Assembly: GCA_947184155.2 (NCBI GenBank)
Contig: CAMXCT020006582.1
Coordinates: 15,001-79,000 of the forward strand
DNA length: 64,000 bases
From: Cladocopium goreaui
Lineage: Eukaryota; Sar; Dinophyceae; Suessiales; Symbiodiniaceae
Reading direction: 5' to 3'
The translations under genes and the position numbers were made by a program. The notes under the pieces were generated by a model that was not told where the DNA came from, searched no databases, and was given only the letters and a program-made list of their open reading frames with translations. Positions within the stretch are counted from its first letter, which is position 1. Each line of letters starts with the position of its first letter. Positions 49,837-62,859 of this stretch are shown in pieces.

Positions 49837-52800
49837 CTCAGCTGGCCGTCAGTGACCAGAGGGCCTCATGTATGCAGTTCATCCAGTCTCAACTATTAGG
49901 GCAAAACATCACAAAAATTATACAATTGATGACTGGTGACTTGAACTTGGGAATTGGGAGAGAACAAGAGGGGCTACGCTACAAATCCCAGGGTTCATTG
50001 GAAAAAGTTTATTCCAAAACAACATTGCTGAGTTACCCTCAAATAATTTAACATAGCTATGGAAAATGGCCCAGTTATAGCTGATTTACCTCTGAAACTG
50101 GTGATGTTCCATAGCTATGTTCGTTTACCAGGCCGGGTATGATTTGAAGTTTCCGCATTCCTTCCGCAAAAAAATGCTGCAGAAAATCTATGGTGCAGCA
50201 AAGGCTCTTCACTCCCGCGGCGTCACTCTTTCTCATGAACCGCTGGCTGATGTCGATGAAACCTGGCTCGGGACCAGTGGAAAACATGGGGAGAGTCTTC
50301 TCCCACCCCGCGATTTGTGACCGTCACGGCCGTAACTATAACACAGTCAGAACATGTTATCAATGCGACCACCTCAGGAATTGGAACTACTTGCGCAAAG
50401 GACATTGGTTTGTCCAAACATGGTGGTGATGGTGCCCCTAACTCATTCAAAAATCCACTACGAAACCCATCAGTTTAGGAAAGTTTAAGATACTTCCCCG
50501 CCTTGTGAAAAAGCTAGCCATACAGCCCATTTTACATATAATTTCCCACATGACATAGCCTTAGTCTTTTCCATAAAATACCACGCCAATTTCAGCACAA
50601 ATTCCACACCATAGTTACCAGTCAATGGATTGGTGTAAAAATCGGAACCGGAAACCATAGATTTTCCTATCAAATATGGGGCTTTCCTGTAAATCTTCCC
50701 CTAAACCAATCCATTCAACCGCACCTTGGACATCCAGCATAGCCAGCTTCGCATCACTGAGAGCCGTCCTTAAAGATGCCGCTCGCCGCTCCGGCTGAGG
50801 TTGTTCCGCGCAAGCTGAAAATGATGGGAAGTGTTGTATTTTGGGGTGTGGTTGATTAATTACTCTTGTGTTTTTTCATTCAAACATAGTTGAATAATGT
50901 TGCATAATGTTGAATATATTGGATATATTTGGATGGTAAAGAACCATCGCCTCCTACAAAGATTCCACACAACATGCAGGCCGTCACTGTCCCGAAGCTA
51001 TTACGTTCAACTGCTCCAACCAGACCCATCATCCGTCATCCGTATCTATCCATGTCTTCCCATGGATTCATCTATCTTCCAACATGTTGATGACAAAAGA
51101 ATTGTAAATATTGTACAAATATATACAAATATCATAGGTTTTTCATCCGTTCCATATCTGTCCCATCTTCATTTAGACAAATCATGACGGAACGCATTCA
51201 TTTGTATAGAATCCGAATTTAACATTCTGTGACATATCCTATTGTTTTAATAAAAAATAACATCGTATACGGTACATATTTTGGCTGTCATATCTACGAA
51301 AATCCTAACATAGTGTAACTGGGTAAGTGTATAAATTTGTAAATAATATGTATTCAGTATTCATCATAGTATCACCAACACTAAGTGACTATAACGATCT
51401 ATGATAACCTTCATCATAGTCGAACAATCTGGGTAAATTATAATGTCATTAACCTGAAATGTTGGGCCATTTGGGGATAATTCCCCCAAGAAAACCATGA
51501 TTCCAGGGTTCGGAAGAACAGTGAGGTGGTTATAATTATCCCAGAACAGTTAGTATAACATCTGAACGATATGTATTCATCGTAGCATCACCAACACTAA
51601 AGCATACTAAAACTATAACAATCATAACCTTCATCATACGGTGGATGGTTGCGAAATCCTGCACCAGTTGGTAGGTGGTAACTATTCCATTATTTATAGG
51701 GTTTCAACCATCCCTTTGATGATGCAGGATTTCGCAACCATCTACAGTATGATTATTAGCCGCTTGGTCAACTCTTAGATCTACTTACTTCAGGACCCTA
51801 ATCTCAGCAAAACACGGATTGATGAAACTTCATTCAGATAAATAATGGAATATAGAATGATATAGATCGGTCATATCAGAAAATCCCCATTCAATCCCCA
51901 TTAAATCCCCATTCAATCCCCATTAAATCCCCATTCAATCCCTATTAATCCACTATATAAATCTGTTATAAATCCACTATAAATCCATATAAATTCACTA
52001 TAAATCTGTTATAAATCCCTATTAAATCCCCATTAAATCCCCATTAAATCCCCATTAAATCCCCATTGGTAAAGCCTTTATTTTTGCCCCAGCTACAGGG
52101 TGCCCCGATGCTTCCAGGTCGTCCACAAGGCCGCTTCGGAAACGCAGCGCTTTTCACCCACCATGGTCACCTGGCAGGGGAGAATCCTCCAGTCATAGTG
52201 GATTTATAGGGATTTATAGCAGATGTATAGTGGAATTATATGGATTTATAGGGATTTATAGTAGATTTATAGGGATTTATAGTGGATTTATAGGGATTTA
52301 TAGTGGATTTATGGGTATTTATATTGAGTGCTGAGAGCTTCTCATGGAAAAGCCTTCCCTTAGTGTAGCTGAGGGTACAGTAACCATTGGTTTTTCGGCC
52401 AAGATTTGCTCAATATATTTGCTGGGATATGCTGGGGTTCAACCTAAGGCAAAAAATAGCTGTCTGTAGTTGATAATGAATCAGACCTCCAGGGCTTGAT
52501 CTGGCTTGATCTGGCTTGATCTGGCTTGTCACGGCTGGTCAGTGCCTGCTGATGGCCAGTCAGGGCCGCCTCGAACTCATGGGCATTCAACAGTTCCCCC
52601 GTTCCCCCAATGGTCATGCTGAGTGAGCTAGTTGTGATGTAGCCCCTTCCAACTTGGAGATCTCATGTTAAACAAATCTAGATGAAGGCCCTGCACATCT
52701 CCCCCGGCCCTGCACCTTGCCCCATCCCGGCCGTCCCAGGGCCGTCCCGCAACGCCACGCCGCAACGCCCGTTGCGCCTCGCCGTAACTGTCGGTGTATT

Positions 52801-55800
52801 CCAAGGTGCCGCTCACCACGATATACCTGGTGGATCAGAGGATCATCCACTGGGAACTAAAAGACAGAAAAGTATAAATATATGTAATTATATGCAGAAC
52901 ATATTATAATATATAAATATATATATTGTTCTACTAACACAGTATTATAAATTCAGTATTCATCATAGTATCACCAACACTAAGTTACTATAACGATCTA
53001 TGATAACCTTCATCATAGTCGAACAATCTGGGTAAATTATAATGTCATTAACCTGAAATGTTGGGCCATTTGGGGATAATTCCCCCAAGAAAACCATGAT
53101 TCCAGGGTTCCGGAGAACAGTGAGGTCGTGAAATAATTTACCCAGATATATGTAATTAATATGTACAACATATTATTTAAATATATATATATAGTTCTAC
53201 TATAAATATACACATATATATCATATATCAATATTAATGGTATTATGAAAATTTCCTGTATATAATTTTTATGTCACGATTTTAGTGGGATTTTACTTTC
53301 TATCTTTTTGGGGGCTATACAATGTTGGGAAGGAGTCCACTGTTCTATCATCAAACAACGGAGGTTGAACACTGCCCAACTGTTCCAATTTGTTTACACA
53401 AAATCCGTACAGAAGCATGGCGGTGTCCGAAAACCTGGAAACTTGATTTCACAATCATATTGAATCCGATCTGCCCTCTGGTAAACTAACATAACTATGG
53501 AAAATCACCATTTTTAATGGGAAAATCAACTATAAATGGCCATTTTCAATAGCTATGTTAGTCATTACCAGGGTAATCCCATCAATTTTGGGGGCTAGTC
53601 ATTACCATCTTCTCCCAATCCTCACCATCCTACTCTGCCGATGCCAGGCAAGCGTCATCTTGGGCTCTGGTGGCAAATCACCCAAGCTGAAAATCACATC
53701 CGTGCTGGACAGCAACCTACAGGCTGATGCTTTAGCGGGAATTTTTTCCTTTACCCTCCGATCTCATCAAACATGGTTTGCTCTAAAATCGTCATTTGTA
53801 TATGATTTTCCCATGAAATTTTCAATTTCATAATATGTAATGTATGTATTATATATATATGTGTGTGTATGTGATTGTATATGTATATATCGGGGATGGG
53901 GATTTATGGGAAACTCCCATTGCCAAGTTTGATTACGGGATGGTATCTGGATCATATCTACATGGTTCCATATGTTTGGAAGTATTGTATACACGGGGAT
54001 GTGCCCTCAGTCCCTGAATGTTCAAGGGATCATCCTGACAAAGCCAAAACGAAGAAATTCCCGTAGGCTTCGGCCACTTGGGGATCAAAGGTCAAAGTGC
54101 TTCAAGGGTTCCTTTCCAGTCACCAGAATCAGTCTGAGAACCGTTCCGTTTGGTTATGATCCAGGTCCACTTGACATGAAAAAACTGTGCCTTGAGATTC
54201 AGGTTTTCCATCTTCATGAGTGTTTGTCCTATCTGATTTCACTATGGCATACTATGGCTACGGCAAAGAAACAGTGAGACAGTGAGGCGAGAAAAAAAAA
54301 ACTCCGAAAAGCAACAGTAGACTTAAAACAGAGGTTGAAAGGAGTGGTTCAAATGGTGTGTCGCCCCACGTTTCCCCCGTGAACCAAACCCAAGAAACAC
54401 CAGCCCCGGGGCCCCACGTCACGAAGCCAGGTCGCAACATCGACATGGCGCGGTGGCACACTGGTCGCATCATAGGACCCAACTGCTGCAGGAGTTCCAG
54501 GAAAAAATGGTGCGTTTGCAGCACCTGGGAATACATGTCCTGGACGCCACCGAGTCACCGCGGTCGGTTAAGGGAACCGGGTCGAATTGGAGGGTTGTAA
54601 CATGTGAGGTAACAAGATGTAACAACCCAAGGCACTTGCGATGTCAGGGATGCAGCCTCAAGTACGGTGATGTCTTGGGTTGGAAAATTGATGATGGGTG
54701 GTTGGTGAAACGTAGGAACCTTTTTTAAAAAAACACCGGCCAACCATCTTTGTGATCTCTCCAAATTTGGATCTGTCTAGGGTTGCAATTGAACATCGTC
54801 GTCCCATCTTTGTGATCTCTAAAAAAAACACTTCTCAAATATCCCAAACATAAGGTCATCGGTAAAGATATCATTCGAAAATCTCAAGTATATAAGTATA
54901 TATTTGGTATAGTTCATCCTTAAAACAAAACCAAAAAAAGCACCATTCGGATCTTCTCAATACCACTTTGTATTTTTCAAATCCCTGTTGTTGATTGGAT
55001 TTTTCCTCTGACAAGGGCGCAGTTGTCCCACTTTCAACAGCGCCGTTGACCGCGCCGTGGTAATTTCCGCAGAGCTTCGAAGGACAATTCAATCTTCAAC
55101 GGTTCGGAGATGACATGCAAGAGTTCGACGGATTCCTGCAGCAAATTGGGCAGGGTTCCATGGGGGATCCCTGGAAAAATCCCAAAGAGCTGGATGTTTT
55201 ACCTTGAAAAACTTGTGAAAATCCTATGAAAATGGATGATAACTAGGGGTACCCTCCATGAACCCGCCATTGGGAAAGAAAACACAAACATACAAGAGTA
55301 AAACCACTCATGGTTTGATTCATCTATAGCTTATTATCGTACAGTACCTGAAGCGACTTATTATGATCTTAATTATATATACAATACAAGATCGTACTTC
55401 CGTACAAGAGTGGCTTTGAGCAGCTTTTTTCGGACTATTCCTGACTACTGACAATATCTGTAGCGCTTAGGACATCAAACGGGCGATAAATAGATTGAGT
55501 CATCCATCTCTTGAAACTCAAATGACTCAGTTGACCTCCCATACCATACCACTTTTTCACGTGGCGAACACGATGATCAGTTATTTGGGGTTGAATGGCG
55601 TATGTATATATATATTATATAATGTATATATATATATATTATACACCTCGAAATAGTACATTGGTCATGGTTGACTGTTGGATTGGTCTAACCACATGAC
55701 CTGATTCATTCTGGCCTCAACTACCCTGGCCTCAACTACCCCACAGTGCCACACTTGGAGCTTTTTTCATAATCCCTACGTAACTGGGGTAATTATATCC

Positions 55801-58800
55801 CATTATAATCCATATAACGTTGAACAGGATTCTTGCACATGGTTATGACCTACTTACACCTCCAAAATTCAACATGGAACCCCAAAAAAAGATCTGAAAA
55901 AATTAGAATATCCTTTGGATGTGGCCATCAAAATGTGTTCCATCCGTGGTTTCACAACCCCACAAATTACTGGGGGTATATCCCATTAATATCTGACTGA
56001 TTTCATCTGTTTGCTACCATGCTACTAAATAAATATAATATAATGTGGCAAAACTCAATAATAAACCAGCGCAGTAATTATATATGTAAAGTAGGGGGTC
56101 CCTTTTAATCATCCCATGACTATACTCAGTTCTGATGACTTGGGAGTTGGTGAGGCCCTTTTTGGCGCTGGAATTTGGAAAGTCGTCCGACAACTCCGAC
56201 AACTCTTGTGACAATTTGAACTGAGTATACCCAATAATTACTGAAAATCTAGCACCTTGCATTTTGGCAATGGTTTCCCATGAAATCCCATTTTCAATCC
56301 CCACATTTAGGGGGGGATGGGGAAACCCACATCCAATGAAAAGCCAATAATTACTGGAAACCTAGCATTGGAATATGAAATTTGCATGGAAATTCCCATG
56401 TTTTCTTCGGATTGAAAAAATCCTCCCATCCTCGTGAAAGGTGGTTTGCTGCCTATTTCTATGGCCGAAAGTCTCATTGGTCAGAAGTTATTTCCACATG
56501 ATACTTATTATAGAAACCTCCAAGGACACCCAAAAAAAGAGAGAAAAGCAAAACTATATTGGTCAGTTGGGATGATCATTCCCAATATATGGAAAGTCAT
56601 AAAGACGCCATGTTCCAGTCACCACCAACCAGATTTTTCAGCCCTGCGACCGGGGTGAGGTCTCCAGAGATGGCGTGCTTGGCGTTGCGGCACACGCGCC
56701 TAACGTTCGAGGAGGATTGAACCACCAAGAGGATCCGACTCTTGGAGTTTGAATAGGCACCAAACATGGTACCCGGCCTGGTAAACGTTTACATAACTAT
56801 GGAAAATCACCATGTTTCATGGGAAAAATCACGAACTAAATGGTGATTTTCCATAGTCATGTTAAATTACCAGAGGGTAGCTGACTTCAACAAAAGTGGT
56901 GACCAGCACAAATGCAGCTGAAAAACATGAGTTTGGCCATGATGTAACCAATGGATTTCATTAATTGATATGGGCAACAGAGTTTCTACCCTCCAACATC
57001 GGCTTTTACTGTACATGGTAACTTCAACCAACTTAAGGGAGACCCTGCCAGTTCAAGACTTCTGAAATGGTCTTCGAGTACCTACTTGGAATATCTTGGA
57101 ATGGAGGGCTCAGCAGCAAAACTCAATATCTAATATATCTAGCAATTATCTAGCAGTGATGTGATAGTTAGATATACCCTCTGGTTATTTAACATAGCCA
57201 TGGTATAGATAGCCCATAGAAATAGATGGTTTACCTATTAAAAATGGTGGATCTTTCCATGGCTATGTTAGTCATAACCAGATGGTAGATATAGTTGGCT
57301 AGTGATGCTTCAAACCCATTTGTTTCGGAAAGTGATCGACTGTCTGCAAGACCAATGGAGCAATTTGACAGAAAGCCCACCGCCTTGAGGTCCTAACGTC
57401 ATCTAAAGTCCACTTATCTTGCCAACTTAGATGGGCCACGGCCATGGAGTTAATTAAATATATAGTAAATGGATCTATATATATATAAATGGATTTTCAT
57501 TGGGATATAGTTGGTGAAAACCGGCTGAATAACTAGTTAGCAAATCCGGGCCATTTAGAGTACAGCACTCTTTTCGATGGATCCTTCCTCCAGGGCTCTG
57601 TTTTTTTTGCCAAGTCGCTTGGTGATCACTTTGGACACCTTAGAGGTGTCAAAGGTTGGTGAAAAGTCAGTCCTCAACTTTATCAATGGATTGGTTTAAG
57701 GGAAAATTTACAGGAAAACCCCATATTTAATGGGAAAATCTATGATTTCCTGTAAAGTTTCCCTTAAACCAATCCATTGACTTTAGCGATCCCATTTTAA
57801 TCATAGGTTTCCTAAGTCCATGGTATCCCCAAATCATCATAGATCCGGGGCATGGATGGACCATGACAGTATTGAAATTCATGGGGAATCCTCCATTTCT
57901 CAGCTGGGCCCCTTGGCTACATTACCACCCTGCATGTGGGACCTCGTAGAACCTAAGGCGTTCAGAACATTTCAGAACCGTTACTGTCACACAAGCATTC
58001 GAATGTACCCATGTTCGATCTTAGACACCCTGCTTAGTAAAATATATATTTATATATATTATATATTATATGTATATATATATTATATAATGTATATTAT
58101 ATATATAACATATGAATGAATCTGAAGCACCGCTCCATGTTCAACCATCAACGATGATTTTGCAGCATACCAGTCAATCCAGTCGACGCAGTCTACTCGG
58201 GACACCATCCTCCGGCCATCCAAAGGGGCAGCGGAACCAGTGAGTTGCCCACTAAAACATCCATAGGTTTGATTACCGGGGGCTATTGAAAGAAACCATC
58301 CCAATAGTGGCACACCCAATCATCAACCGAAACTGGGGATGGGTTATGGCATTGGGTTTACTAAGTTTACCGATGTAATCAATAAGAATCTATCTTTTCA
58401 CATCTTTTGACCATGGCAAAAGTGCCCTAAATGATCCTAAATGGCGTACGGCCCCCGCCAGGCCACGTTATTCTGCTTCAGATATCGCTTCAATGTCGCC
58501 AGTTGCCTCGCACCGCTCCCTCCGATGATGTACTGCTGGGTGAGGCCAGAGGTGAAGACGCCCAGCATGACCTGCCGAGCCAAGGGGCTGCTCTTGAAAA
58601 GTTGCTGCTGGGCACCATATGGCAGTGTGTCAAAACCTTGTACCCCTGGTGAACATCAAAATAGCTGGTAAATGGATGTTCAACCCCCTAAAAATGGTAT
58701 TAATAGGTATTGATCCATACCCATATTTGAGTAGCAAATCATCACGGTCTTGTGGCTTAGCCACTTAGCCCCCTAAGTAATTCATCCACGAGTAAATCAA

Positions 58801-59886
58801 CATCCGGAGATAATCCGGAGTGGACATGTTACTTGACCTAACTTAGATGGGCCATGACTATTTAATTGGTGGGTCATCCCTATTTTGTGAAAAGGTTTCA
58901 CGGATAAATGCCGATGTTTGAATGCTACATCCATATTTTTGAATAACTATTCTTCACGGATGATTAATCCATATTCTGAATGTGTTTCACTCATTAAAAC
59001 CCAATGTCTGAACATGTTTGATGGAAATTCATGGATCAATTCATGGATCAACAAAAATCCTGATGTTTGATGCTTCGATCCCCTTTTTTGGGGGGGGCCC
59101 AACAACACGGCTCAACAGCTCCGAATTTTCGCGGTCCCACGGGCACCAGGGCGATGACGAAAATGGCGCCCCCCACGGCCACCGCGAAGAGCCGCTCAAT
59201 GGGCGAGGCCGGCGAGATTTCGTCCATGCCACCGGAGAACCTCACCGCGTTATGCGCGTGGCAAGGCCACGGCAATGGCCATGGAGGGGGTGAACCATGG
59301 TGAACCATAGGTAAGAAATAATAAATAGGGGAATCATCCATTTTATGGAGGAATTAACCATTCTATGGTGGAATAACCATAGAAATAACCATAATAAATA
59401 GGGGAATCAACAATTTTATGGTGGAAAGTACCATGGAAAGTGAGTTTGTTGGATTTTGTGGGAGAAATTAACTCCTTTTACATCTCACAACAATGATAAA
59501 TCTAGTGTTACTAAAGAGCTGTGACTAGCTATCGGTTTCTTCGGGCCGCTTGGATCAAGAAGGTGTTCCCCAGTGATAGATGAGTGGGTTAAGTTTTCTA
59601 AGTGATGCACAGCCATGTTTGCCGCATCGGTTGCCTCAATCCTAGGAATCCAGGCAGGGCCTGTACCAAACCTCGCCGGGGTCATGTGGGATGCCGCTGG
59701 CACTGTTCTACTCAAGGTGAAACACCCTGCAAACTCTCCCTGGGAGCAATCATCTAACTCAGGTTGAATTCAAAAACCATTCAATTTTCTACATATATAT
59801 GTATATATATAAATATATATGCAGTATTATTTTGGTATGTGTACATATATATATACATACATATGTTATAATTATAATATATTGAG

Positions 59887-59920
<34 letters not shown>

Positions 59921-62806
59921 TGTATGTATGCATGTATGTATGCATGTATGTATTTATGTATACATATATATACATCTCTCTCTCTCTCAATGATGCAGCA
60001 TAGGAACTGCGAAAGCGCCCAGTGGAGGGAGGCCAGGTACTGGGCATCCACTCCTGGTGGCACAGCAAACATCGACATCAAAAACACACAACTTCAGGGA
60101 TTAAAAAAAAAAAACGCCAGTATAAATGACTTAAAATGACCAAACATTGAGGGATAAATGTTAGAGGATGTTTAGTCATTTTAAGTCAGAGATACTCATT
60201 ATACTGGCGTTTTGTTATAATGAGTATCTCTGACTTAAAATAACTAAACATCCTCTAAAATCTTTTTTTTTAGTATAAATAGATTATACCTATTTATATC
60301 TGTATTTTTTGAGAATCTAACGGTAATCTAATCTAAGTCTAACTCCATTCTAACTCCATCTTCCCAGCATCGTTGGTTTTTTTGTGCGGATCGTCTTGGG
60401 GAACCTCCATTGACTCAGTCCTTGAGTGTTGTAGCCCAAGACTTGGACCCAGGTGCTGTCCGTGGTGTCTCGCGCCCCTATGGCAAACCAGAGGCCTCAG
60501 AGCCATGGCAGACATAGAGCTATGACCTCTGAAGGATGGTGGCTTTATAGATGGCTAATAGACTGATGGCTGAGAGTTGCGTTTGTTTTTTTGATTTCTT
60601 GGGATTTTTGTGATAGCGCCTTCAGGCTTATGGTGTCAAAGATTGATCTATTGTAAATAAATAGGGATGGGCCCGTCAAGCATTAAGCGCACCAATGAGC
60701 CGTACAAGTTGTTCTTGATTACGAGTGGAGAAAGCAATCTGTCGGCATCCACTGTTAGGGTCAAAAGTTCATCTAACTATGGTGGGATTCCTTACGAAGG
60801 TCATAATCATAATATCTCATAATGGCAACCCAATGGATGTCCACGCTGGTCTGGATTATCCGATCATATCGCCAGCGGCTCATATGGTCTGCGCCGAGGG
60901 GCACCCAGTGAAGTGCGAAACCGCAAGCAGAACGATGAGGACTTTGCCTGGCCGCGGGCGTAGTTTCCGAGAAACAGCCACAGAAAGAGGCAAAATAGGC
61001 ACAGTGGTAGTCCCGGTCAACTCACTTCAGAATACCCTCTGGTAATTTTTAACACTATTGAAAATGGCCCATCTATAGTGGATTTACCCATTGATAGCAT
61101 GGTGATTTTCAGTATGTAAACGTTTACCAGGCCGGGTCCCTCCAAAAGCATCCGGAAGCCACGCACATCACAGGTGGAACATCTTGGAAACCACCCCAAC
61201 TTCCTTCGTGGATCATCCCAGTGAATATCTGGCACACCGAATAAAAATATCATGTTGAGACTGTTTTTATCACCTACCCTCTGGTTATTTAACATAGCCA
61301 TGGTATAGATGGCCCATTTATAGATGGTTTACCTGGGTTTACCTATTAAAAATGGTGATTTTCCATGGCTATGTTAAATTACCAGAGGGTATGTCTGGAT
61401 TTTAAAACATGATGTAGTTTAATATTAGCGTCTATTAGTTTGACCAAATTAATCCACTAACTCAGATGATCCAAAAAATGCGGCTTCGTCTAAGAATGTT
61501 GGCAACCCCCCAATTTTGCTGGGTTCGAAATCTTCAGAACGTCATTTTCCCACAAAACTGACCATGGCCTTGCATATACATATGTGTATGTATATATTAT
61601 AAATATATATATGTGTGTGTGTATTTATTTATATATATATACATATTTATATTTATTTTTTTATTGTTATTTTTTTATTTATAAATCTCCAAATTTCAAA
61701 CACAGTTCCATTTTTTGACGATATCCTATGCATTCCATTTCATTCCACATCTATCTATATAAGTCTATATACTCCAGGATATACATCATAAATAAATATA
61801 CATATGTATAATATTATGTATATATATATATCATAATGATGTGTGTGGGGGCCTTCCCAGCCCCCTTTTTTCCTAGGCACCCCCGATTCGCAGTGCAGCA
61901 GCGGGACTCACTTGCAGCAGCGGGCCCAGCGTCTCCGACTGGATGCGCTCTGTGACGTTGGCCATGATCTCCTGGAGGGTGATGCCACTCGGCAGCAAAG
62001 GTTGGTTACAAACATCTTTGAAAACCATGTTTGTGGGTAAAATAAAATCTAAAATAATATGTTAAATGAATCTGGTAGATAGCAACAAAAAAGAACTTGG
62101 ATAAGTTCCAATTCTAGGAAATATAGTGGTAAATTCTAAGTTTGTGAATCTTTTAGGGGGGCGGCTTTGTAGATTTAATGGATAAGAATAGTATGCAATA
62201 GCTGGAAATGACTTGGAGTGATAAATTGTTGGTCCATGGAATAAATGGGCAGAGAAAATCAATGGATAGAAAGTTGGATATAGAGTCCTTGAGCAAACGC
62301 AAAATGATGCACCTTTTACCACTTTATTTAATGCATATACAGTATATATATATGTTAGCATTGGTTTTGTCTTTTAGTAATTTTGGGGGTTGCTACAATA
62401 ATTTCGATCCAGATTAATGTGGTAAACCTTATTATAAATCATCCCCAATATGACCATAAATGGGTGGTACAAAGTACAAACCATGCCCAATTTAGATCCC
62501 TCCCGTAATAACAGGTAATTAATCAAACATGGCAATGGAAATCAATCTGGTTGGTGGTATACCTACCCCTCTGAAACATATGAGTTCGTCAGTTGGGAGT
62601 ATGAAATTCCCAACATATGGAAAGTCATAAAATTCATGTTCCAAACCACCAATCAGTCAATCATTTACAAATGATTTCCCATATCTTCCCATTCAACTTC
62701 CATTTCCAGGGGCCACGTTTGATTACCGGAGGCAATGGGGCGCTCCTGCATACGCACCAAGCGCAGTAGCCGGACGATTCGTATAATCCGTGTGGTGCGG
62801 GCAAAG
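49788..62806 (-). CDS. Voltage-gated cation channel with C-linker and cyclic-nucleotide-binding domain (partial, 17 exons located)
   Basis: Six-TM channel of the CNG/HCN/EAG-like class, an integral membrane protein. Located exons, 5' to 3' on the minus strand: 62746-62806, 61912-61971, 60903-60947, 60415-60495, 60008-60053, 59147-59240, 58467-58571, 57619-57638, 56651-56699, 55076-55135, 54436-54524, 53654-53716, 52778-52826, 52097-52170, 50725-50756, 50229-50262, 49788-49836. All but one junction keep frame (61912 to 60947 does not, so a small exon may be missing there). The joined protein gives S4, S5, turret, pore helix, filter, S6, C-linker and a CNBD beta-roll, about 330 residues. S1-S3 and the true N- and C-termini were not resolved. 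Donors mix GT, GC and GA. The pore lacks GYG and has GGMDE. Ion selectivity and ligand are not deducible. Confidence 0.88.
50034..50139. mobile_element. MITE-A copy
   Basis: TACCCTCAAATAATTTAACA ... TTCGTTTACCAGGCCGGGTA. Confidence 0.7.
50229..50262 (-). CDS. Channel exon: post-CNBD FIDISQRFM
   Basis: Begins after GAGCCAG and encodes FIDISQRFMRK. The GA donor (AAA|GAGTGA) is chosen because it restores phase to the next exon. The 3' end is less certain than the start. Confidence 0.62.
50622..50716. repeat. Family C copy
   Basis: tggattggtgtaaaaatcgg ... cttcccctaaaccaatcca, complementary ends. Confidence 0.65.
50725..50756 (-). CDS. Channel exon: CNBD C-helix start (32 nt)
   Basis: Encodes DAKLAMLDVQ. 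Joined after HRGTL it gives the usual HRGTLxAxxxxxLxxLD arrangement. Acceptor CTCAG|T, donor CCAAG|GTGCGG. Confidence 0.72.
51352..51536 (+). repeat. Direct duplication, copy 1
   Basis: About 180 bp starting attcagtattcatcatag and containing gttgggccatttggggataa. It is nearly identical to 52951-53131. A partial relative lies near 14810-14910. Confidence 0.8.
51635..51751. mobile_element. MITE-like hairpin CATACGGTGGATGGTTGCGA
   Basis: Arms catacggtggatggttgcga and tcgcaaccatctacagtatg around a 70-bp centre. Confidence 0.75.
51885..52075 (+). repeat. CATTAAATCCC / TATAAATC short tandem repeats
   Basis: Runs of a 12-bp unit cccattaaatcc with an intervening ataaatccactat run. Confidence 0.85.
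52097..52170 (-). CDS. Channel exon: CNBD SEAALW / HRG segment
   Basis: Reads VTMVGEKRCVSEAALWTTWK then HRGT. It occupies the phosphate-binding-cassette position, with SEAALW in place of the usual GExALL. Acceptor GCCAG|GTG, donor ACCCT|GTAGCT. Confidence 0.8.
52195..52325 (+). repeat. Tandem GGATTTATAG repeats
   Basis: Alternating agggatttat and agtggatttat units, complementary in character to the repeats at 51885-52075 on the other side of an exon. Confidence 0.85.
52778..52826 (-). CDS. Channel exon: CNBD YIVVSGTLEY strand
   Basis: Reads YIVVSGTLEYTDSYGE. The frame stays open to about 52690, but a GC donor at GGCGAG|GCGCAA joins smoothly to VTMVGEKRCVSEAALW. The 3' end of this exon is therefore inferred. 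Confidence 0.8.
52951..53131 (+). repeat. Direct duplication, copy 2
   Basis: Matches 51352-51536, one copy in each of two different channel introns. Confidence 0.8.
53472..53575. mobile_element. MITE-A copy
   Basis: TGCCCTCTGGTAAACTAACA ... TTAGTCATTACCAGGGTA. Confidence 0.75.
53654..53716 (-). CDS. Channel exon: CNBD beta-roll part 1
   Basis: Reads LLSSTDVIFSLGDLPPEPKM, the DxIFxxGDxPxxM pattern of the CNBD roll. Acceptor TGTAG|G. Donor ATGAC|GCTTGC (GC) joins to TYIVVSGTLEY in the next exon. Confidence 0.87.
54436..54524 (-). CDS. Channel exon: start of CNBD
   Basis: Contains HHFFLELLQQLGPMMRPVCH and then RAMSM, matching the A-helix region of channel CNBDs. The surrounding open frame is longer, but the donor ATGTT|GCGACC (GC) gives the in-frame join to the next exon. 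Confidence 0.83.
55076..55135 (-). CDS. Channel exon: C-linker SEPL segment
   Basis: 20 codons, ESVELLHVISEPLKIELSFE, typical of the C-linker just before the CNBD (VxLLxxxSEPLxxEL). Acceptor CTGCAG|GAA. The donor GAA|GCTCTG is of GC type and keeps frame into the next exon. Confidence 0.85.
56651..56699 (-). CDS. Channel exon: C-linker RNAKHAISGDLTP
   Basis: Reads RVCRNAKHAISGDLTP. Acceptor CGTTAG|G, donor CCCCG|GTCGCAG. It is followed in phase 0 by ESVELLHVISEPLKIEL in the next exon. Confidence 0.82.
56770..56879. mobile_element. MITE-A copy, GGCC variant
   Basis: TACCCGGCCTGGTAAACGTT ... TTAAATTACCAGAGGGTA. Confidence 0.8.
57175..57287. mobile_element. MITE-A copy
   Basis: TACCCTCTGGTTATTTAACA ... 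TTAGTCATAACCAGATGGTA. Confidence 0.75.
57619..57638 (-). CDS. Channel 20-nt microexon in the C-linker
   Basis: Only 20 nt, encoding VSKVIT plus two bases. Acceptor CTAAG|GTG, donor ACCAA|GCGACT (GC type). Joining it to the flanking exons gives YLKQNN-VSKVITK-RVCRNAKHAISG, a continuous C-linker. Without it the linker would have a gap. Confidence 0.72.
57683..57782. repeat. Family C copy, near-perfect palindrome
   Basis: caatggattggtttaaggga ... tcccttaaaccaatccattg, the best-preserved member of the family. Confidence 0.75.
58467..58571 (-). CDS. Channel exon: end of S6 and start of C-linker
   Basis: 35 codons. VMLGVFTSGLTQQYIIGG completes S6, and QLATLKRYLKQNN is the classic (L)RxYLxxNN start of the C-linker. 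It joins the pore exon in phase 0. Acceptor CGGCAG|GTC, donor AAC|GTGGCC. Confidence 0.87.
59147..59240 (-). CDS. Channel exon: selectivity filter and first part of S6
   Basis: Reads FSGGMDEISPASPIERLFAV and then a hydrophobic S6 stretch, AVGGAIFVIAL. The ISPxxxxERxFAV part matches what follows GYGD in K+/CNG channels, but the filter itself is GGMDE. Acceptor GTGAG|G, donor CTG|GTGCCC. Confidence 0.87.
59779..59990 (+). repeat. TATG / TA microsatellite
   Basis: (TGTA)n with TA tracts in a channel intron. Confidence 0.9.
60008..60053 (-). CDS. Channel exon: pore helix
   Basis: Reads VDAQYLASLHWALSQ. The SLHWALSQ stretch occupies the position of the SLYWSxTT pore helix of potassium-type channels. 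Donor TCGCA|GTTCC. The next exon completes the glutamine codon and starts the filter. Confidence 0.85.
60114..60256. mobile_element. Nested inverted repeats ACGCCAGTATAA
   Basis: Outer arms acgccagtataa / ttatactggcgt span 60114-60210. A second 40-bp inverted pair lies at about 60163-60201 and 60215-60256. Confidence 0.75.
60415..60495 (-). CDS. Channel exon: S5-pore turret
   Basis: Reads LWFAIGARDTTDSTWVQ and onward, the outer turret that follows S5 in this channel type. Acceptor CTGAG|GC, donor CTGA|GTCAAT. Both phases fit the neighbouring exons. Confidence 0.8.
60903..60947 (-). CDS. Channel exon: S5 helix
   Basis: Encodes KVLIVLLAVSHFTGC, a hydrophobic S5 ending in the HFxxC signature of EAG/CNG-type channels. 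Acceptor GGCCAG|GC, donor GGGT|GCCC (GC type). The phase does not match the preceding exon, so a tiny exon may lie between them. Confidence 0.8.
61033..61137. mobile_element. MITE-A copy
   Basis: TACCCTCTGGTAATTTTTAA ... AAACGTTTACCAGGCCGGGT. Confidence 0.75.
61275..61391. mobile_element. MITE-A copy
   Basis: TACCCTCTGGTTATTTAACA ... TGTTAAATTACCAGAGGGTA. Confidence 0.8.
61912..61971 (-). CDS. Channel exon: S4-S5 linker
   Basis: Exactly 20 codons, reading EIMANVTERIQSETLGPLLQ. It is flanked by CTCCAG|GAG and CAA|GTGAGT. The charged amphipathic sequence directly follows S4, as expected for the S4-S5 linker. Confidence 0.8.
62547..62659. repeat. Family D copy
   Basis: atctggttggtggtataccta ... 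ttccaaaccaccaatcagt, near the S4 exon. Confidence 0.65.
62746..62806 (-). CDS. Channel exon: S4 voltage sensor
   Basis: Encodes ARTTRIIRIVRLLRLVRMQ, with six arginines spaced every third residue, the hallmark of a voltage-sensing S4 helix. Acceptor GTTAAG|C. The best donor is CAG|GAGCGC (GA type), which joins in phase 0 to the next exon. Confidence 0.88.
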
Positions 62807-62859
62807 CTTAACATGGCCACACCTGCACGGCTTGGGTTTGGATGGTTTGGTACCTGAAA

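Follow-up and report, generated by a model that had tools for sequence, protein, structure and literature searches.

A six-transmembrane channel gene of the dinoflagellate Cladocopium goreaui with GGMDE at the selectivity filter, and its non-GYG relatives in the same assembly

The stretch of DNA analysed here (the window) comprises 64,000 nucleotides of contig C5941 of the C. goreaui assembly GCA_947184155.2 (1.17 Gb and 6202 contigs examined), window base 1 being contig position 15001. Its minus strand carries a channel gene made of short exons separated by repeat-rich introns. The S1 exon lies outside the window, at about 82310-82411 of C5941. Within the window, the S4 voltage-sensor exon VAMLSFARTTRIIRIVRLLRLVRMQ (62746-62820), with six arginines, one at every third residue, is conserved in a paralog on contig C432, and the S4-S5 linker exon EIMANVTERIQSETLGPLLQV (61909-61971) is 95% identical to that of C432. 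The region from S5 to the C-linker is encoded by five exons: S5 (60975-60903, its 5' limit provisional, ending in ...KVLIVLLAVSHFTGC), the turret LWFAIGARDTTDSTWVQVLGYNTQG (60495-60421), the pore helix GVDAQYLASLHWALSQ (60053-60008), the selectivity filter with the first part of S6, (Q)FSGGMDEISPASPIERLFAVAVGGAIFVIAL (59240-59147), and the end of S6 with the start of the C-linker, VMLGVFTSGLTQQYIIGGSGARQLATLKRYLKQNNVA (58571-58461). The four introns have the donors GC (T/GCCCCT), GA (AAG/GACTGA), GT (GCA/GTTCCT) and GT (CTG/GTGCCC), and all the acceptors are AG, including those of the pore-helix exon (CACCAG/GAG) and the filter exon (GGTGAG/GTT). Spliced from S5 on, these exons read VLIVLLAVSHFTGCLWFAIGARDTTDSTWVQVLGYNTQGVDAQYLASLHWALSQFSGGMDEISPASPIERLFAVAVGGAIFVIALVMLGVFTSGLTQQYIIGGSGARQLATLKRYLKQNNVA. 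The last of them shows 97% identity to C432 over 36 residues, and its first 23 residues are identical in a further paralog, on contig C159. A single open frame covers S5, turret and pore helix in C432.

Downstream, two C-linker exons, RRVCRNAKHAISGDLTP (56651-56701, collinear with C159) and ESVELLHVISEPLKIELSFEAL (55070-55135, matched at 79% over 14 residues of C159), are followed by an exon at the start of the CNBD region, HHFFLELLQQLGPMMRPVCHRAMSML (54435-54512), and by a first beta-roll exon, LLSSTDVIFSLGDLPPEPKM (53656-53715), both collinear with C159. The second beta-roll exon, YIVVSGTLEYTDSYGE (52778-52825), is matched in C159 and in part also in C432, and the exon standing where the phosphate-binding cassette would be, VSEAALWTTWKHRGTL (52096-52143), another CNBD exon, TALSDAKLAMLDVQG (50723-50767), and the C-terminal exon, GFIDISQRFMRKSDAA (50216-50263), are matched in both. 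Altogether, a comparison of open reading frames places the exons in collinear order with these two paralogs from S1 to about 50216, with S1-S4 matched in C432, and with counterparts in C159 alone for the exons at about 56.7-53.6 kb. Scans of the window for Rfam families and for tRNAs returned nothing. The introns hold long, near-perfect, MITE-like hairpins with arms of 32-46 bases (60158-60261, 57683-57780 and 61272-61394); one arm (61363-61394) translates to MAMLNNQRV-like letters, and C432 matches there too.

By its sequence, the gene encodes a six-transmembrane channel of the KCNH/HCN/CNG (CNBD) kind, with a six-arginine S4, a C-linker and a degenerate CNBD. The composite of the C432 exon peptides matched Pfam Ion_trans at 40.4 bits (E 2.5e-10, cut-off 25), and the S4-to-C-linker fragment of the window alone reached 22.7, under the same cut-off of 25; composite joints outside the S5-C-linker region are predicted ones. 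Against the PDB, the C432 composite found KCNH2 (E 1.9e-6), CNGA1 (1.5e-5), HCN4 (1.9e-5), KCNH1 and HCN1 (3e-5), and AKT1 (4.6e-5), together with T-type calcium channel chains that match the S4-S5 part only (2.9e-5). The pore by itself is less telling: a profile of the three paralogous pores found KCNH1 as its best match at E 0.008, and three of its eight matches up to E 10 were unrelated proteins. Of the solved sequences, those of KCNH1, KCNH5 and AKT1 come closest to the pore. The CNBD composite of the window, built with predicted joints, scored 18.5 bits against Pfam cNMP_binding (E 0.002, cut-off 27.5) and had no match in the PDB up to E 10, and a GC3 scan of C432 for CNBD exons gained none. 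In animal CNG and HCN channels, the phosphate-binding cassette carries the motifs FGE and R[TS]A; the corresponding place here, located by eye, reads SEAALWTTWKHRGTL, without FGE and RTA. Outside the assembly, a viral contig collection searched with one protein and with an alignment gave 15 and 7 matching stretches, none of them a relative, and a second alignment matched 13 stretches of prokaryote genome contigs, again with no relative among them.

The feature that sets this gene apart is its filter. A preliminary description of the locus had proposed that two phase-matched exons form a pore in which SGGMDE replaces TxGYGD, and the limits that it gave, 59147 and 60053, are the exact outer limits of the two motif exons. 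Joined in phase 2 across a GT-AG intron of 767 bases (59241-60007), 60053-60008 and 59240-59147 give SLHWALSQFSGGMDEISP, and the joined pore-helix and filter exons read GVDAQYLASLHWALSQFSGGMDEISPASPIERLFAVAVGGAIFVIAL. We tried every in-frame, stop-free join between GT, GC or GA donors up to 120 bases after SLHWAL and AG acceptors up to 120 bases before the DE codons. In the window there is one acceptor and there are four such joins, all four giving FSGGMDE; only one of them is GT-AG, the one used, and it yields SGGMDE as proposed. C159 allows 12 joins, the shortest of which (GC-AG) is the only one with the family length and gives QFSGGMDEIYP. C432 also allows 12, among them a family-length GC-AG join giving QCRGGMDEISP and an in-frame GT-AG join, one residue shorter, giving QCRGMDEISP (CRGMDE). 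The GC-AG join that gives GGMDE in C432 was selected by length, and the filter joins in both paralogs are our choice, so that the first G in C432 and C159 rests on that choice and GMDE is independent of it. C432 differs in having CR before GGMDE, where the window gene and C159 have FS. The intron of the window gene interrupts the codon for Q; that of C159 and, with the family-length join, that of C432 interrupt the codon for the first G, so that one motif goes with two intron positions.

An alternative join restoring a GYG filter, the outcome that the preliminary description had named as evidence against itself, is rejected on genomic joins: the TxGYG or TxGFG filter of potassium-selective channels is absent from every join examined, with GYG or GFG in none of the 28 in-frame joins across the three genes. 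All minus frames of the 767-base intron also lack G[YFLI]G, and the only G[YF]G in the minus frames of 61974-58400 is LKYGYGSIP, in the next intron and without channel flanks. The observation of GGMDE is thus correct. The accompanying claim that the flanks are standard for potassium and CNG-type pores fares less evenly: the pore is of the six-transmembrane CNBD type, but its helix ends in SQF and not in TxT, and it is one residue short relative to potassium channels.

A search of the assembly with the C-linker, up to E 1, found three loci, the window gene, C432 and C159, and all three have GGMDE by the preferred joins, the counts being lower bounds. From their sequences, the two divergent paralogs thus appear to share the motif, which is, on these three of three loci, a conserved trait of a subfamily. 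Over 99 aligned codons, the three genes differ pairwise by 37-42 synonymous and 14-18 non-synonymous codons, with NG86 estimates of dN of 0.095, 0.102 and 0.132 and dS of 1.25, 1.38 and 1.23. The resulting dN/dS of about 0.07-0.11 is rough, since dS is near saturation. With dN of 0.09-0.13 against dS of 1.2-1.4, the sequences clearly point to purifying selection and constrained genes. A motif arisen by chance is rejected, because the exons form a chain collinear with C432 and C159 and the motif is kept through 37-42 synonymous differences in 99 codons. Taken alone, GGMDE as a DNA pattern is uninformative, with 143 places matched in the assembly and 32 matched by the reversed control. Of the 143 places 100 were listed and 30 read, two of which are channel pores, C159 and C432; the other 113 matches, the window's own included, lie outside that reading and may hold further GGMDE pores. 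One place, L022 (C17:250589), has GGMDEIHPP in another open frame with no pore helix directly in front.

To judge from these sequences, GGMDE belongs with several other non-GYG filters to a larger family within the same assembly, where more than 20 further pore exons have filters such as TPASM[DE], TPATNN and GVGxxE and where ordinary TVGYGD pores occur too. Unlike filters came up as early as the first genome search. A query modelled approximately on the C1006 pore, one of these (two residues differ), gave 28 matches up to E 10, and 27 of the 28 were read. Where potassium channels have T[TS][VI]G, each of the 27 reads Q[FLM][TAM]P; ten continue as TPASM[DE] or near forms (TPAAMD, TPASCE), eight as [TAM]P[AS]T[NT]N, and nine read otherwise or are cut by the end of the exon. 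A query of the GVG type found five loci (GVGQTE twice, GVGSTE, GVGNVE and GVSSSD), to which C1125 adds GVGLSD. Canonical TVGYGD, TSVGYGD and TVGFGD pores are present in the assembly as well. Many TPAS-type pore exons (L061, L062, L064, L066-L069, L087-L089) seem to stop within the filter or directly behind it, so that this family may often have an intron at that point. Identical pore exons were seen on the contig pairs L006/L007 (C428, C548), L055/L056 (C199, C1577) and L073/L074 (C2028, C5821), which are either recent duplicates or uncollapsed haplotypes.

The non-canonical pores also have a length in common. Of 17 non-canonical pores measured, 16 have a spacing of 13 from the aromatic dyad to the proline, against 14 in each of the 12 canonical pores measured in the same assembly; the identical pairs C199/C1577 and C2028/C5821 count twice. 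The sole exception is L065 (C308:259110-259202), with the filter TPASKPDIDP and the potassium-channel spacing of 14. The 17 were measured among 36 non-GYG loci seen (three GGMDE, 27 from the C1006 query and six of the GVG type); those left out have an exon that ends before the proline (C256, C30, C1876, C1125:236599, C2118, C1445, C4557:1185927, C598, C963, C502 and C1086), no proline at either place (C428, C548, C168, C3179, C3708 and C1402) or no aromatic dyad (C2583 and C5885). For the canonical exons, 20 matches were found, 15 were fetched and 12 were measured, leaving out C1245 (no proline), C719 (a stop) and C4446 (cut); five canonical matches on contig C1, and C2512 from the C1006 query, stand outside the spacing count. 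HMMER alignments to KCNH1, KCNH5 and AKT1 likewise open a gap of one residue in the filter, and the three-paralog profile does so against KCNH1 and KCNH5. The CNGA1 pore, its sequence confirmed letter for letter in the PDB, spans 52 residues against 53 in SthK, and 51 against 52 in KCNH2; it shows no length change relative to PDB chains of CNGA1 and TAX-4 length, and it is one residue under KCNH2, SthK and NaK. From the spacing, the HMMER gaps and the CNGA1 spans, it follows at the sequence level that the non-canonical pores share their length with CNG channels and not with potassium channels.

Aligned without gaps, the GGMDE pore and CNGA1 share 7 of 29 residues, a number reached by 12 of 20000 letter shuffles, and the aspartate of GGMDE falls on what we take to be Glu363 of CNGA1. 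Glu363 has a role in the block of CNGA1 by divalent ions. With just 7 of 29 identities, the equivalence of the two residues is weak. In the gapped alignment to potassium channels, it is the glutamate of GGMDE that stands at the D of GYGD.

Among known systems, the animal CNG channels (CNGA1, TAX-4, with TIGETP) offer a likeness in architecture: six transmembrane segments, a filter one residue under that of potassium channels, an acidic filter residue, and a C-linker with a CNBD-like region. Contrary to them, the window gene has SGGMDE with two acidic residues, the helix end SQF and a CNBD under the Pfam cut-off; when tested against a TIGETP-type filter, the length matches and the letters differ. 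The KCNH channels (EAG, ERG) are the nearest solved sequences to the subfamily of the window gene, which differs from them in the replacement of the SVGFGN filter and in the loss of one residue. KCNH CNBDs are not known to need cyclic nucleotides, which would fit the degenerate CNBD found here. HCN channels resemble the subfamily in that the C432 composite matches chains of HCN4 and HCN1 in the PDB; their filters, as given in a survey of CNBD channels, are CIGYG (PMC7576140). The protist CNBD channels of the same survey, which include those of dinoflagellate species, have the filter consensus TVGY/FG, and the filter is described there as highly conserved across the superfamily, significant deviations being rare and individual with the exception of metazoan CNG channels (PMC7576140). 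The potassium-channel homologues of pathogenic protozoa have filters altered at or after the second glycine, but GYRD, GYSD and GYSE retain GY, and GYX occurs in a KCa2/3-like group (PMC3283738). The strings QFTPASM, LHWSLTQF, LHWALSQF and QFTPATN are absent from the literature searched, outside of which most subscription papers and bioRxiv preprints fall, and the letters GGMDE led there to no evident channel of such kind. Within this literature, the non-GYG pore class looks undescribed.

Potassium selectivity is tied to TVGYGD (PMC6768053). Our preferred reading, to which we give a probability of roughly 60%, is that the gene product is one subunit of a tetrameric six-transmembrane channel of the CNBD superfamily with an acidic filter of CNG length, which would not prefer potassium and would pass sodium, potassium and calcium with block by divalent ions. 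S1-S4, with the six-arginine S4, would sense voltage, S5-P-S6 would form the pore of the tetramer, and the C-linker and the degenerate cyclic-nucleotide-like domain would couple the cytoplasm to the gate. The pore would belong to a lineage-expanded class with a filter one residue shorter than in potassium channels, placing four aspartates of GGMDE at the gap-free position of Glu363 and four glutamates just outside. With one residue missing, Tyr-Gly lost and an acidic pair present, a four-site potassium-selective filter should be impossible, and a wider acidic filter would then pass sodium, potassium and calcium, with divalent ions blocking it. Because of these three features and the CNGA1 alignment, a voltage-sensing channel that interacts strongly with calcium is to be expected, probably a cation channel that does not prefer potassium and is either calcium-permeable or calcium-blocked, with rings of Asp and Glu at the filter. 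We infer the tetramer, voltage gating, selectivity and little or no cyclic-nucleotide gating from sequence; control by cyclic nucleotides is doubtful. The sister genes appear to share GGMDE and many relatives have odd filters, so a little-known channel class without selectivity for potassium is probably at work in the cell.

Three other explanations deserve weighing. The product could be a non-conducting or modulatory subunit that works in heteromers only, its filter freed to drift away from GYG. The protozoan homologues with GYRD, GYSD and GYSE, which their authors consider likely non-selective or non-functional (PMC3283738), offer a precedent, and the CR of the C432 paralog in place of FS would suit a drifting filter. 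Drift is hard to reconcile, however, with GMDE (GGMDE by the preferred joins) being held through 37-42 synonymous differences in 99 codons and with related pores mostly keeping an equal length, so we regard this explanation as rather unlikely. Even less probable, in our judgement, is a channel that still mainly conducts potassium as HCN or KCNH channels do, through an unusual permeable filter or in heteromers with TVGYGD subunits. The closest solved relatives of the pore are all potassium channels, and selectivity has been called unpredictable from primary structure, a remark made about tandem channels of the superfamily (PMC7576140); against this, GYG has lost its tyrosine and its second glycine, the pore is short by one residue, and SQF takes the place of TxT at the helix end.

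That the gene is dead, or that its exons are never joined and the model is an artefact, is very improbable. The gene model is predicted from genomic sequence, with short exons and repeat-filled introns, but dN/dS among the three paralogs is low (about 0.07-0.11), the exons are collinear from S1 to the C-terminus, and splice sites are usable and frames open from S5 to the C-linker.

Going further than the preferred reading of a non-potassium-preferring channel, a large class of CNBD channels that sense voltage and have shortened filters of polar or acidic residues (SGGMDE, TPASM[DE], TPATNN and GVGxxE) may have arisen in dinoflagellates independently of the CNG channels of animals, and within this class the GGMDE type would form a calcium-selective or strongly calcium-permeable tetramer providing calcium entry beside or instead of four-domain calcium channels. 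We offer this only tentatively, as a possibility on the unlikely side. An assembly that by itself has more than 20 non-GYG pore exons, the majority of those that could be measured being short by one residue and several showing recurring motifs, would mean that nature has reached the shortened filter of animal CNG channels a second time. This raises the question of which currents dinoflagellates run through CNBD channels, which can be tested directly by expression.

Two further observations concern the canonical pores. At L084 (C4446:569355-569411), SLYWAIMTLTSIGYGA has an HCN-like GYGA filter, apparently cut by the end of the exon. Contig C1 (G000:C1), of more than 7 Mb, holds five canonical pore matches between 935313 and 7105530; their open frames of 273-392 amino acids, on a contig of this size, suggest a bacterial genome co-assembled with the host.
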